This document shows, piece after piece, positions 22,546 to 43,931 of a stretch of DNA of 64,000 nt. The translations under genes and the position numbers were made by a program. Position 1 is the first letter of the stretch. Each line of letters begins with the position of its first letter. Source of the DNA: Phoenix dactylifera (taxonomy: Eukaryota > Streptophyta > Magnoliopsida > Arecales > Arecaceae); assembly GCF_009389715.1 (NCBI RefSeq), contig NC_052399.1, positions 4,728,938 to 4,792,937 on the forward strand, written 5' to 3'. The notes beneath the pieces were generated by a model. It had not been told where the DNA came from. It worked only from the letters and a program-made list of their open reading frames with translations, and ran no database searches.

Positions 22546-23250
22546 TTATCCCTTGTCGCTTTGAGAGCTGTGCAATTGGATGATAGAGTTTGAAGAGCAG
22601 CACGTGGGGGGTGCACCGATGGTGGATCGGTGTGAAAGTGCATCCTTCCTTTTTCTTTTTCTTTGGTACATCAACGGCTCACATCCATTGGTGTGGATAC
22701 AACCAACAAAATCAGAGAAAAAAATACTGTGCAAAGGTATTGGCACAGTCCTGTAATTTGTCCAGAAGCAATCTACAAAGTGATGAGCCGCGAAGAAAGC
22801 AACTTAGTCTACAGCATCGTTTGCCTCTTGATATACGTGTGTAGTCTGGTAGGAATCAGCCTCTTCCAGTGCTCTGTGAATGTCGTGGAGCAGCGGCCGA
22901 TCCTCGACTGAGCATCCCTGTCCCCAGATCCACTCAATCACTGTGATCGAATTTCCCTCGAGAAGAAGGCGACCAATGCCTAGTATCTGCCTTGCGTAGA
23001 AAACACCCTCCCAGGCCGCCCTAAACTCCACACACACTACTGACGAGTCGAAGATCTGCCGTCCTCCCGCTGCCATTAGTCTGGCGTCATAGTCCTTGAT
23101 GATGAATCCCACACTTCCGCATCTCCCGTCCTCTGCTACGCTCCCATCAAAGTTCACCTTGAGGAAGCCAGGGGTAGGATCACCCAGAACCTGTCTGGGC
23201 CTAAAATGTTCTATCGGGCCTGAATGTGCTTCATGGTTGGACCAAGCCTA
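22546..23250 (-). pseudogene. RNase H-like domain pseudogene of a plant non-LTR (LINE-type) retroelement
   Basis: The minus strand reads GFLKVNFDGSVAEDG, then FRAAWEGVFYARQILG, then HVYQEANDAVD, an in-frame TAA at 22804-22806, and then continues in the same frame with VAFFAAHHFVDCFW and IFFSDFVGCIHTNG. This is the layout of the RNase H domain (RVT_3 type) at the 3' end of plant LINEs and of the related plant 'putative ribonuclease H' ORFs. The catalytic Asp usually found in EGDS is Asn here (LLEGNS), so the domain would be dead even without the stop. An upstream stop lies near 23253, and no reverse transcriptase part is attached, as expected for a 5'-truncated copy. Confidence 0.8.
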
Positions 23251-37125: not shown

Positions 37126-38455
37126 AGGCGATGGCCGCCGGCACAGAGAAATAATAGAATATAAAGAAATAAAATAAAGCCGCCCATTGAAGTCTGGCTA
37201 GGTTTGAGTCGGGTACAGCCGGACAGAAACGCGCCTCAGCTGGACTGACCTGGGACCTGGGTTGAGATAGGGTGCTGTGCCTATCGAAGTTTTGTAAATT
37301 TCATAGAGAGGAAGATACAACCATTAATATTTAAAAAAGAAAAACTTCAATTAAACAACCATTGCATGCATGCGAAAAGTTTGTCGGATCCACAAATAAA
37401 CTTATCCACAATTCGTAGTCAACTCTCGCGGGTGCGGATTTGATAACCTACGCGATATGCAGTGCGTCAAAAGCCTTAAATTATTGGATGCCCTTTTTTT
37501 TAAAAAAAAAAAACCGACAGGTGAAGACTCCATCCGCTAGCTCCATCAATGAATGAACCCTACGGCACAAAAGCGCTTAAGAGACAAGTCCTGAAATTAT
37601 GACAGGAGTGTAGAGATTACGTACGAGCATAAGGTAATAAAAAAAAGGGAAAATTAATCACCCACCCTCTTTTAGACCACGCTATAACAAAAAGTCCCCG
37701 TTGACCCGGTCTTAAAATTTTTCGTCCATTATCTCTTTTAAGTTTAATTCCCGGTCCTTCAGCCCCTTTTGTTTTTTCAAAAAATACCGAAAATGCCCCT
37801 ACCCCTTTTGATCTCCCATTCCCAGAAGAAGAAGAAGAAACAGGGACAGCCGCCACCGACCACGGCCCATCCCCGCCCGAGCTCCCTCCCGTGGCTGCCA
37901 TTGGCGCCGTCTCGCTTCCTACCGAGCCCCATCCCGCGGCACCGCCACCTCCCGTGCTCCTTCCCCTCCTAATCTTTCGATCTCAGCAGAAAAAGAAGAA
38001 GAAGAAGGCCCGGCCGCCGCCGACCATGGCGCGCCTCCGCCCGAGCTCCCTCCTGTGGCCACGGCCGGCCCCTGCTCGCCCCCTCCCTAGCCCCCTCCTG
38101 CGGCCTCGCCCCCTCCCACGGCCCCCGCCCGAGCTCCCTCCCGCGGCCGCCGTCGGCCCCGGCTCGCCGTCGACGGCGGCCCCGCCCCCTCCAACGGCCG
38201 CCACGGCCCGGCCCCCTCCGGCGCCGCCGGCTCGCAGGAGGAGAAGAAAGAAGAAAGAAGAAGAAGGGAAGAAGAGAAGAAAAAGAAAAAAAAAAAGAAA
38301 AGGAAAGAAAAAGAAAGAAAAAAAGAAAAAAAATAAATAATTAAATAAATGCATAAATAAATAAATCAATAAATATAAATAAACAAATAAATAAAATAAA
38401 TAAATAAATAATATATTCTAATAAAATAAAATAATTATAAATAAATAAATAAATA

Positions 38456-38757
38456 AAGAAAAAGGAAGAAAAGGAAAGAAAAAGAAAAAAGAAGAAAAGG
38501 AAAGGAAAAGAAAAAAGAAAAGAAGAAAAAAAAGAAAAGAAAAGAAAAAAAAACAGAAGAAAAGGAAAGAAAAAGAAGAGAGGGAAAGAAAAAGAAAAAA
38601 AGGAAAGAAAAAGAAGAAAAGGAAAGAAGAAGAAAAAAAGAAAGAAAAAGAAGAAAAAGAAAGAAAAGAAAAAAAAGAAAAGAAAAAGGAAGAAAATGAA
38701 AGAAAAAGAAGAAAAAGGAAAGAAAGAAGAAAAAGAAAAGAAAAAGAAGAAAAGGAT
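38456..38757 (+). repeat. ~300-bp almost pure polypurine tract
   Basis: The + strand is A/G only apart from two or three bases, built from AAGAAAAGGAAAG-like words. Long open frames across it on either strand encode only Lys/Arg/Glu or Phe/Leu/Ser runs and are artefacts. Confidence 0.95.
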
Positions 38758-38779
38758 TATTTCTACAAAAAGCAGAAAA

Positions 38780-39788
38780 CTCAGTTAAGTTCAGCATTCT
38801 GCTCTATGCACACAATTTATTGTTTATTGCACACAGATATGTGTCATTTGCACACACTTATTGTTGTAAGCCTAGAGCATGGCACAAACTCAGTTAACCT
38901 GGAAACATACTTAATTAACGTTGGCACACACTAAATTTACCCCCGAACATACTTAATTAACGTTGGCACACACTAAATTTACCCCCGAACACAGTTTTGT
39001 GCTTTTTGCACACAGTTTTCTGCTTTTTGCACACAGTTAATCGACTACTGCACACAGATATGTGCCATGTGCACACAGTTAAGCATTCTGCTCTGTGCAC
39101 ACAATTACCCGAACACAGTTTTATGCTTTTTGCACAGTTTTCTGCTTTTTGCACACAGTTTATCGATTACTGCACACAGATATGTGCCATGTGCACACAG
39201 TTAAGTTCAGCATTCTGCTCTGTGCACACAATTTATTGTTTACTGCACACAGATATGTGTCATTTGTACACACTTATTGTTGTAAGCCTAGAGCATGGCA
39301 CAAACTCAATTAACCTGGAAACATACTTAATTAACGTTGGCACGCACTAAATTTACCCCCGAACACAGTTTTGTGCTTTTTGCACACAGTTTTCTGCTTT
39401 TTGCACACAGTTAATCGACTACTGCACACAGATATGTGCCATGTGCACACAGTTAAGTTAAGCATTCTGCTCCATGCACACAATTTCCCGAACACAGTTT
39501 TATGCTTTTTGCACACAGTTTTCTGCTTTTTGCACACAGTTTATCGATTACTGCACACAGATATGTGCCATGTGCACACAGTTAAGTTCAGCATTCTGCT
39601 CTGTGCACACAATTTATTGTTTACTGCACACAGATATGTGTCATTTGCACACACTTATTGTTGTAAGCCTAGAGCATGTAACCTGGAAACATACTTAATT
39701 AACGTTGGCACACACTAAATTTACCCCCGAACACAGTTTTGTGCTTTTTGCACACAGTTTTCTGCTTTTTGCACACAGTTAATCGACA
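38780..39788. repeat. ~370-bp tandem repeat built from CACACAGTT sub-repeats
   Basis: The anchor GAACACAGTTTTGTGC occurs at about 38987, 39361 and 39729, giving a period of 374 and 368 bases with two full units and a partial third. Within units the short words TTTTGCACACAGTT and GCACACAGATATGTG recur many times. All reading frames across it are repeat translations. Confidence 0.9.
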
Positions 39789-39950
39789 ATTTTTTTTCTT
39801 TTCTTTTCTTTTTTTCTTTTTTCCTTTTCTTCTTTTTCTTTCCTTTTTCCTCTTTTTCTTTCCTTTTTCTTCTTTTTCTTTCCTTTTTCTTCTTTTTTTC
39901 TTTTTCTTTCCTTCTTTTTTTTCTTTTATTTTTCTTTTTCTTTCCTTCTC
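39788..39950. repeat. Polypyrimidine tract, first
   Basis: The + strand is nearly all C/T in TTTTTCTTTCC-like words, the mirror composition of the purine tract at 38456-38757. Confidence 0.95.
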
Positions 39951-40107
39951 TACACACAATTAAGTCTTCTGTGCACACACTTAAATCTTCTCTCAACACA
40001 GTTAAGTATTCTATACATCACACAGTTAAGTTAAATATTCTCTATACACAATTAAGTCTTATATGCACACATTTAAATTTTCTCTGCACACAGTTAAGTG
40101 TTCTACG

Positions 40108-40173
40108 CATCACACAGTTAAGTGTGTGCAGAGAAGACTTAATTGTGTACAGAGAACACTTAACTGTGTGATG
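40108..40173. repeat. Perfect 18-bp hairpin in the element core
   Basis: CATCACACAGTTAAGTGT at 40108-40125 is the exact reverse complement of the bases at 40156-40173, with a 30-base loop. It marks an inversion of the CACACAGTTAAG sub-repeat near the centre of the fold-back element. Confidence 0.9.
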
Positions 40174-40227
40174 CACACAGTTAAATGTTCTCTGTACACA
40201 ATTAAGTATTCTCTGCACATACATGAA

Positions 40228-40632
40228 TCTTCTTTTTCTTTCTTTTCTTCTATTTTTTTCTTTTCTTTTCTTTTCTTTTTTCTTTTTTTCTTTTTTCTTT
40301 TTCTTTTTCTTTCCTTCTCTTCTTTTTCTTTCCTTTTTCTTCTTCTTTTTTTCTTTTCTTTTTTTCTTTTTTTCCTTTTCTTCTTTTCTTTTCTTTTTCT
40401 TCTTTTTCTTTTCTTTCTTTCCTTTTCTTCTTTTTCTTTCCTTTTCTTCCTTTTTCTTTTCTTTTTTTCTTTTTTTCCTTTTCTTCTTTTTCTTTCCTTT
40501 TTTTCTTCTTCTTTCCTTTTCTTCTTTTTCTTTCCTTTTTTCTTTTTCTTTCCCTCTCTTCTTTCTCTTTCCTTTTTTCCCTTCTTTTTCCTTTTTTTCT
40601 CTTCTTCCTTTCTTCTTCTTTCTTCTCCTCCC
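40228..40632. repeat. Polypyrimidine tract, second (~400 bp)
   Basis: The + strand is almost purely C/T. It forms the counterpart, toward the right arm, of the purine tract that joins the left arm, so the inverted arrangement continues in composition though not base for base. Confidence 0.95.
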
Positions 40633-41565
40633 GCAGGCCGGCGCCACCGGAGGCCGGGGGAGAGGGCCCGGCCATGGCGGCCGCAGAAGGGGGCCGCAGG
40701 AGAGGGCCCGGCCGTGGCGGCTTTATTTATTTATTTATAATTATTTTATTTTATTATAGAATATATTATTTATTTATTTATTTATTTATTTTATTTATTT
40801 TATTTGTTCATTTATATTTATTGATTTATTTATTTATGCATTTATTTATTTATTTATTTTTTTTCCTTCTTTTTCTTTTCTTTTCCTTTTTTTTCTTTTC
40901 TTTTTCTTCTCTTCTTCCCTTCTTCTTCTTTCTTCTTTCTTCTCCTCCTGCGAGCCGGCGGCGCCGGAGGGGGCCGGGCCGTGGCGGCCGTTGGAGGGGG
41001 CGGGGCCGCCGTCGACGGCGAGCCGGGGCCGACGGCGGCCGCGGGAGGGAGCTCGGGCGGGGGCCGTGAGAGGGAGCTCGGACGGGGGCGGGCCATGGGA
41101 GGGGGCTCGGGAGGGAAGAGGCCGCGAGAGGGGGCGAGCAGGGGCCGGGGACGGCCGCAGGAGGGAGCTCGGGCAGAGGCGAGCTGTGGTCGGCGGCGGC
41201 CGGGCCTTCTTCTTCTTCTTTTTCTTCTGAGAACGGGAGATTAGGAAGGGAAGGGGCACGGGAGGTGGCGGGGCCGCGGGATGGGGCTCGGTAGGGAGCG
41301 AGACGGCGCCGGTGGCGACCGCGGGAGGGAGCTCGGGCGGGGACGGGCCGTGGTCGGTGGCGGCTGCCCCTGTTTCTTCTTCTTCTTTTGGGAATGGGAG
41401 ATCAAAAGGGGCAGGGGCATTTTAATATTCTTAGGGGGCGTTTTCGTCTCATAATAAAGTATTGAAATATGGCTGGACTGATCGTTAAACAACCAGTCAA
41501 CAGGGATTAAACGTTAAAGACCGGTCAATAAATGTACCGGTGATTAATTTCCCCTAAAAAAAAAA

Positions 41566-43021: not shown

Positions 43022-43931
43022 GGGTGGTTCTATATACACCCCCCCCTATTGCTCAGGACACCCCCCAAAAATTAAAAAAAAATTAAATACTCTCTACACC
43101 CCCCCATTTGCTAAGGACACCCCTAAAAAATTAAAAATTTCTAAATTACCCCCCACCCTCCCCACCCCCTCACCTAAATTGCTCTCTACACCCCCCAAAC
43201 CCCCCCACCCCGCTCTTCCCCTCCAAAACACCTCGCCAACGCCCAAAACCCCCCCGTTCCCCCTTCTCCCTCTCGTCGCCGGCATTCTCCCGATCTCCGA
43301 CCACCTCGCCGGCTTCTCTCGGAACCACCTCGCCGGCTTCTCCCGAAATTTTTTTTTTCACGGTTCGTGCTCCGTTCGGCACTGGATCGCCGAACAAAAG
43401 GTTTCTGTTCGGCTGAACAGTGCCGGACAGAAGCCTTCTGTTCGGCACTGTGCAGCCGAACAGATCTGTTCGGCACTGTGCAGCCGAACAGATCTGTTCG
43501 GCACTGTGCAGCCGAACAGATCTGTTCGGTTGAGGGTTGCCGAACAGAAGGCTTCTGTTCGGCACTGTTCAGCCGAACAGAAGCCTTTTGTTCGGCGATC
43601 CAGTGCCGAACGGAGCACGAACCGTGAAAAAAAAAAATTTCGGGAGAAGCCGGCGAGGTGGTTCCGGGAGAAGCCGGCGAGGTGGTCGGAGATCGGGAGA
43701 ATGCCGGCGACGAGAGGGAGAAGGGGGAACGGGGGAGGAGGGGTTTAAGGGTGGTTTGAGGGGTGTTTTTTTTTTTTTCTTTTCAAAACGAAACGGAGGA
43801 GGAGGAAGGGGGGGTGTATGAGAAAATTTTAAGGGCAATATGGTAATTACACTAAAGGTTAGATTGGGTATTTTTTTTTTGGTTTTTGGGGGGTGTCCTG
43901 AGCAATAGGGGGGGTGTATATAGAACTACCC
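43022..43931. mobile_element. 910-bp fold-back MULE-type MITE with perfect 9-bp target duplication
   Basis: The ends GGGTGGTTCTATATACACC and, in reverse complement, GGGTAGTTCTATATACACC begin inverted arms that also share CCTATTGCTCAGGACACCCC. Inner blocks such as CACCTCGCCGGCTTCTC and CACGGTTCGTGCTCCGTTCG are mirrored on the right as well, so nearly the whole element folds back on itself. The flanks carry the exact 9-base repeat GTCTGGAAA at 43013-43021 and 43932-43940, the duplication size of Mutator transposons. No transposase is present. ORFs inside are translations of the repeats. Confidence 0.93.
43376..43612. repeat. ~28-bp palindromic tandem repeat at the hairpin centre
   Basis: GCCGAACAGATCTGTTCGGC, itself a perfect 20-base palindrome, is repeated three times in a row (with CACTGTGCA between), flanked by GCCGAACAGAAGCCTTCTG-like variants. 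The array sits at the apex of the 910-bp fold-back element. Confidence 0.92.

Follow-up and report, generated by a model that had tools for sequence, protein, structure and literature searches.

A stretch of 64,000 nucleotides from the date palm, Phoenix dactylifera (hereafter the window; G000:C8:4728938-4792937 of a searched genome of 773 Mb in 2391 contigs), contains at 37647-41554 an element that is very probably a non-autonomous fold-back member of the Mutator-like elements (MULEs). That it moves as a unit is shown by 14 copies, that in the window included, with a common right tip, 13 of which were read at their left tip too; ten of the 13 young copies that could be tested, representing nine independent sites, are bordered by exact 9-bp duplications. 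Each of its arms carries a cassette formed by a GC-rich block, a purine run and a AAATAAAT block, and this cassette has its homologue inside the elements of an abundant PIF/Harbinger-like family.

Ends, arms and core of the element

The element measures 3908 bp from tip to tip, and an exact 9-bp direct repeat, TAAAAAAAA, borders it on either side. Its 16-bp inverted tips, GGGAAAATTAATCACC (at 37647) and GGGGAAATTAATCACC (the reverse complement of 41539-41554), pair with one mismatch, and the MULE-like tips of the original prediction were confirmed by finding the same ends in other copies, most of them with 9-bp duplications. The element therefore shows both GGG...CCC tips with terminal inverted repeats (TIRs) and a target-site duplication of 9 bp, within the 7-12 bp of MULEs. 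We scanned the window for 16-bp inverted repeats with up to two mismatches, spaced by 200-20000 bp and flanked by exact 9-bp direct repeats; this gave two hits, the present element and another at 43022-43931, versus none in ten out of ten shuffles of 3-base blocks, and a chance origin of the tips and the 9-bp repeat was set aside on these grounds. Genome searches gave 99 matches for the left arm (best 40 of 843 candidates scored), 98 for the right arm (best 40 of 854) and 115 for the core (best 40 of 82). The parts of the element are:

37638-37646, no strand: left 9-bp target-site duplication TAAAAAAAA, an exact repeat of the right copy
37647-37662, plus: left tip GGGAAAATTAATCACC; the other 12 young copies read on the left carry GGGGAAATTAATCACC
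37647-38455, plus: left arm; at least 15 matches at 96-100% over at least 787 of 809 bases, and four older relatives at 82-92%
37837-38271, plus: GC-rich block of the left arm (stretches 37837-37972 and 37982-38271), the inner part homologous to the PIF/Harbinger-like interior
38322-38448, plus: AAATAAAT block of the left arm; in a composite copy (C3/C1324, see below) a further, complete left end is attached at the position corresponding to about 38433
38455-38756, plus: polypurine tract, inverted partner of 40228-40626
38946-39787, plus: core array in which a 381-bp unit is repeated 2.3 times, with CACACAGTT sub-repeats of about 21 bp
39790-39952, plus: polypyrimidine tract separating the two core parts
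39953-40227, plus: second core part, of diverged CACACAGTTAAG repeats, related both directly and in inverted form to the first
40228-40626, minus: polypyrimidine tract, inverted partner of 38455-38756
40636-40719, minus: extra GC-rich piece, in the right arm only, homologous to the same arm cassette
40716-41554, minus: right arm; at least 14 full-length matches at 96-100%, and four older relatives at 85-89%
40722-40863, minus: AAATAAAT block of the right arm
40914-41393, minus: GC-rich block of the right arm
41539-41554, minus: right tip GGGGAAATTAATCACC, read on the minus strand
41555-41563, no strand: right 9-bp target-site duplication TAAAAAAAA, an exact repeat of the left copy

The arms, of about 0.8 kb, are modular, with a 164-bp internal duplication and tracts, as in fold-back elements. 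Inwards they are 90-96% alike over hundreds of bases (280/307 at 37790-38096, 186/194 at 38097-38290 and 125/131 at 38320-38450), and the outer 130 bp are about half identical, with 43 matches in the outermost 66 bp and 25 among 65 aligned bases in the adjoining stretch; the inverted arms first proposed hence hold for their inner parts and fail at their outermost ones. That inner arms are far more alike than ends fits the proposal that a GC-rich segment was duplicated in inverted form to give the arms, and the GC-rich blocks described in both arms are present, with a peak of 82% GC in each.

The core likewise agrees with the purine and pyrimidine tracts around repeats first noted there. Purine tracts occupy 38219-38365 and 38420-38779, and pyrimidine tracts 39772-39972, 40207-40650 and 40824-40966; the array between them is built of the 381-bp units listed above. 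In inverted alignment, the left purine and right pyrimidine tracts scored 354, above all of 200 shuffles (290.8 ± 9.7, maximum 315), which indicates that they are inverted copies beyond what base composition explains.

Copies, target sites and age

A genome-wide search with the right terminal 32-mer, allowing up to three mismatches, retrieved 67 places, with none for the reversed pattern, and its GGGGAAATT form corresponds exactly to the 14 young copies. Exact 9-mers were directly read in eight copies: TAAAAAAAA, TAATTTTTA, TTAATAAAA, TTTTTTTTT (twice), AAAAAAATT, AATTATTTT and TTTTATTTA. All nine duplicated sites consist of A and T only; in a genomic sample of 206,824 nine-mers, 2.7% do. Within A or T runs, however, the borders of a duplication are ambiguous and chance matches come more easily. 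Because eight further independent insertions carry A/T-only exact 9-mers, each site its own, the low-complexity 9-base repeat seen at first around the window element is not mere chance. The right side of the copy on C5 adjoins a 34-base left-end fragment from another copy. A tip match on L023 (C3:4.6M) was a lone 16-mer devoid of arm sequence, and was rejected as a copy.

Long low-complexity tracts are hard to assemble, and the original prediction had itself considered an assembly artefact. An artefact, or a rearrangement of a single locus, is nonetheless extremely improbable, since the same ends and order recur in the 14 copies, which occupy at least 13 places with differing flanks; the number of core units given for each copy could still be off in the assembly.

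The arms were also aligned and dated, as had been suggested. Left arms diverge by a mean of 1.25% (13 copies, 78 pairs) and right arms by 2.5% (3 copies, 3 pairs), the right arm being usable in three of the 14 copies, since for the rest the sequence retrieved did not reach far enough or aligned best over a part only, and the left in 13, with that of C5 dropped. Left and right arms differ by 6.4% within copies (3 copies) and by 6.45% between copies (36 pairs). From the excess of left-right over left-left divergence it follows that the inverted duplication is several times older than the spread of the copies. Ongoing homogenisation of the arms was not seen, as left-right divergence is equal within and between copies in this sample.

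Differences in length between copies are mostly whole 381-bp core units. Tip-to-tip lengths, computed from arm-match coordinates, group the window copy (3908 bp) with others of 3925 and 3926 bp; copies of 4269, 4274, 4277, 4298 and 4303 bp are about one unit longer, that on C48 (4674 bp) has two units more, and the inner elements of C3:9.2M (6574 bp) and C1324 (6582 bp) have seven more. Two copies, on C9 (4165 bp) and at C3:18.1M (4177 bp), fall off this ladder.

Both arms are also kept in four older relatives, C722, C1:29.18M, C115 and C28, with duplications of 9/9, 8/9, 7/9 and 9/9, respectively; none of the four is among the core matches (best 40 of 82 candidates). There are, besides, 19 diverged core clusters, five of which (C254, C15, C16, C2:12.76M and C33) lie 1.1-1.9 kb from a right-tip match, with core-to-tip orientation opposite to that of the window element, and 14 have no right-tip match within 3 kb. 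Core repeats of this type are consequently present in, but not confined to, relatives of the element. On G000:C985, C11:17.72M, C569 and C33, related core repeats are arrayed at a spacing of about 230-240 bp, not 381.

In the copies at C1324 and C3:9.2M, a complete left end is joined onto the AAATAAAT block of another copy, with the remainder of this other copy's left arm upstream of the joint. A single outer duplication, TATTTTTTT (9/9), encloses the composite, and the inner insertion has no right-hand duplication of its own. The composite at G000:C1324 and that at G000:C3:9197229-9204592 are the same, flanks included, and the assembly perhaps retains, on these two contigs, both haplotypes of a single site. 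Since the extra arm begins within the AAATAAAT block of the element itself, we infer that the composite arose by self-insertion; recombination or template switching could also have duplicated the end, because the right-hand duplication of the inner insertion is missing.

Several observations weigh against the assignment to a mobile fold-back MULE. No transposase could be tied to the tips: the PF10551 (MULE transposase domain) matches scored across the genome (150 of 452 candidates) are all more than 20 kb from each of the 67 tips, the closest at 28 kb. The copies on C6 and at C3:18.1M lack a target duplication and that on C54 has only 8/9. A query made of the joined flanks detected no empty site in the same assembly (two of two candidates scored), its only matches being the flanks on either side of the occupied site. 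The low identity of the ends, only about half over the outer 130 bp, is unusual for a MULE with long TIRs. Lastly, the duplications of all four older relatives include G or C, so that strict A/T targeting is confined to the young copies.

A cassette in common with a PIF/Harbinger-like family

Within 202 kb sampled from contig C1 as 21 stretches, L012 was the only stretch matched by the GC-block query, and the purine query gave at least 12 matches, those listed all lying in L012; the first match there covers 52 nt at 84.6%. The cassette sits inside a 1479-bp non-coding element, L012 7925-9403, whose tips, GATCC[G/T]GTTTGGG, are similar at both ends and have TTA on either side. The element agrees in this with PIF/Harbinger transposons, which are defined by a 3-bp TWA duplication and short TIRs. 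A genome search with the L012 cassette gave at least 40 matches at 81-100% (best 40 of 1098 candidates), none of these 40 being at MULE copies when compared by eye. Four of the 40 relatives were read, on the right side only, and each closes with the terminal motif of L012 7925-9403 and then TTA or TAA.

Could unrelated GC-rich, purine and AAATAAAT tracts merely look alike? Every part is compositionally extreme, and for the AAATAAAT (AT) block the margin is small, with a score of 106 versus a maximum of 96 in 300 shuffles and 92 in the reversed control. Such convergence is, however, very unlikely, because the parts follow identical order and direction in the MULE arms and the L012 family, and because the GC-rich parts align far better than their controls: 103 for the GC part (maximum of 300 shuffles 67; reversed control 44), 74 for the GC end (43; 30) and 52 for the extra GC piece of the right arm (31; 27), in comparisons that overlap in part. 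These alignments suggest that MULE arms may have sequence in common with other transposons. The possibility, raised at the outset as one that would refute the proposal, that the arms occur elsewhere as separate repeats proved partly true of the cassette and not of the whole element.

We had also to consider a Pack-MULE, in which the GC-rich block of the arms, as the original prediction put forward, would be a captured fragment of an expressed gene that later underwent inverted duplication. The high GC content, up to 82%, and the open reading frames that run through the arms speak for it, and rice and maize Pack-MULEs favour GC-rich sequence, according to the part of PMC3310237 on which we draw. 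Nevertheless, the frames encode low-complexity Pro/Arg/Gly sequence, the two arm open reading frames scanned had no Pfam match (transposase domains included), a 161-bp outer GC block matched only arms of the element (best 40 of 134 candidates), and the homologue that was found belongs to another transposon family. Gene capture is therefore not supported among the candidates scored, and we regard it as quite improbable.

As for its direction, one family may have taken the cassette from the other, or both may have received it from a third source. The latter, in which the cassette began as a repeat in its own right, or as a small nested transposon, and found its way into the MULE as well as the PIF-like family, is a real if less than even prospect. 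Its many matches of PIF-like type, the repetition of its GC part both within the MULE arms and within many L012-type loci, and a homology that looks old are consistent with such a source; against this, no free-standing cassette with ends of its own was seen in the five PIF-like copies read at an end.

Proposed mechanism, known systems and neighbouring sequences

For the fold-back MULE, we envisage that a MULE transposase made elsewhere would act in trans, binding the GGGG[A/T]AATTAATCACC tips, and that the element would move into 9-bp A/T-rich sites, young copies often into runs of A or T. The arms would have formed by inverted duplication of the cassette before the present burst, perhaps via template switching in gap repair, and the core could have grown by unequal exchange or slippage. 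A more far-reaching scenario, which we consider unlikely, is that a cassette passed between two superfamilies within one plant genome became a 0.8-kb mirror arm, that its own A/T landing pad led to nesting and composites, and that transcripts reading through the arms could form double-stranded RNA acting on both families simultaneously.

The comparisons that follow draw on portions of the cited papers. MuTAnT, a MULE family of Medicago truncatula, likewise has GGGG/CCCC tips, modular fold-back arms, 9-nt target duplications and A/T-rich targets; it differs in its size (about 0.2 to over 1.6 kb, compared with 3.9-6.6 kb here), in its preference for (TA)n rather than, as often here, runs of A or T, in having a known related autonomous element, and from the GC-rich arm cassette and 381-bp core array of the present element (PMC4486113). 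The Arabidopsis fold-back elements FARE1, now classed as MULEs, are alike by description only, with long palindromic repeats at both ends and MULE affiliation (cited in PMC4486113). Tm1, a Mutator/Foldback element of Meloidogyne, has composite inverted repeats, internal repeated motifs and mostly 9-bp duplications, but it resides in an animal host, has asymmetric 7-bp terminal motifs and a transposase encoded by some members, and the portion cited reports no target preference (PMC3169594). The barley MULE Hvu_Abermu shares 5'GGG...CCC3' tips, mostly 9-bp duplications and TA-rich targets; it possesses, in contrast, a mutator transposase, a length of 8,176 bp and TIRs of 138-145 bp, with no fold-back cassette described in the portion cited (PMC9168764). 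Taken together, MuTAnT, Hvu_Abermu and Tm1 had already made known, in these portions, the tips, the 9-bp duplications, the A/T targets and the modular fold-back arms.

Tetris, a fold-back transposon of Drosophila virilis, also contains expanding tandem repeats, although these are in its TIRs and seeded satellite arrays (PMC4079207), whereas the repeats here are in the middle of the element, with no large array shown. In PMC3310237, where it is noted that acquired sequence may come to form part of TIRs, Ferguson and Jiang give nested insertion as one of several routes to extra arms. The C3/C1324 composite resembles the MULEs with multiple long TIRs described there in that an intact outer duplication encloses an additional arm, with no recognisable duplication for the inner arm, and departs from them in that the extra arm begins in the element's own AAATAAAT block. 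Among open-licence papers covering fold-backs, Pack-MULEs, palms, Tnr8 and the exchange of modules, the top-ranked titles and abstract openings name neither the element nor the sharing of a cassette. What appears to be new, as not met in that portion of the literature, is a MULE cassette common to a PIF/Harbinger-like family and a new end joined in the element's own AAATAAAT block.

Having near-identical as well as older copies, the family permits a sequence study of how fold-back arms originate, and also of the gain of extra arms by MULEs and the expansion of a tandem core inside a transposon. The shared cassette could, moreover, mislead counts of Pack-MULEs that take GC-rich arm DNA as a captured gene.

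The other hit of the window scan, at 43022-43931, is a second, unrelated fold-back MULE situated 1.5 kb from the first element. Its tips are GGGTGGTTCTATATAC/GGGTAGTTCTATATAC and its 9-bp duplication is GTCTGGAAA; the inner arms are GC-rich and nearly identical to each other, and palindromic TCTGTTCGGCACTGTGCAGCCGAACAGA repeats of 28 bp make up the core. A genome search retrieved at least 22 matches, itself included, over at least 901 of its 910 bases at 89-100% (best 40 of 919 candidates). Several copies of this second family are clustered head-to-tail at G000:C626:98721-102162 and G000:C7:5071485-5075041. A MULE transposase domain at G000:C18:6066007-6066294 lies about 3.1 kb from the copy at C18:6069429; it could be the partner of the second family, or be there by chance. 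An Rfam scan gave no hit above the gathering threshold. Elsewhere in the window, protein matches correspond to phospholipase D, a mitochondrial carrier, HSP20, F-box/LRR and an RNase H-like fragment, the last (RVT_3, at 22804-23247 on the minus strand) perhaps a retroelement remnant.

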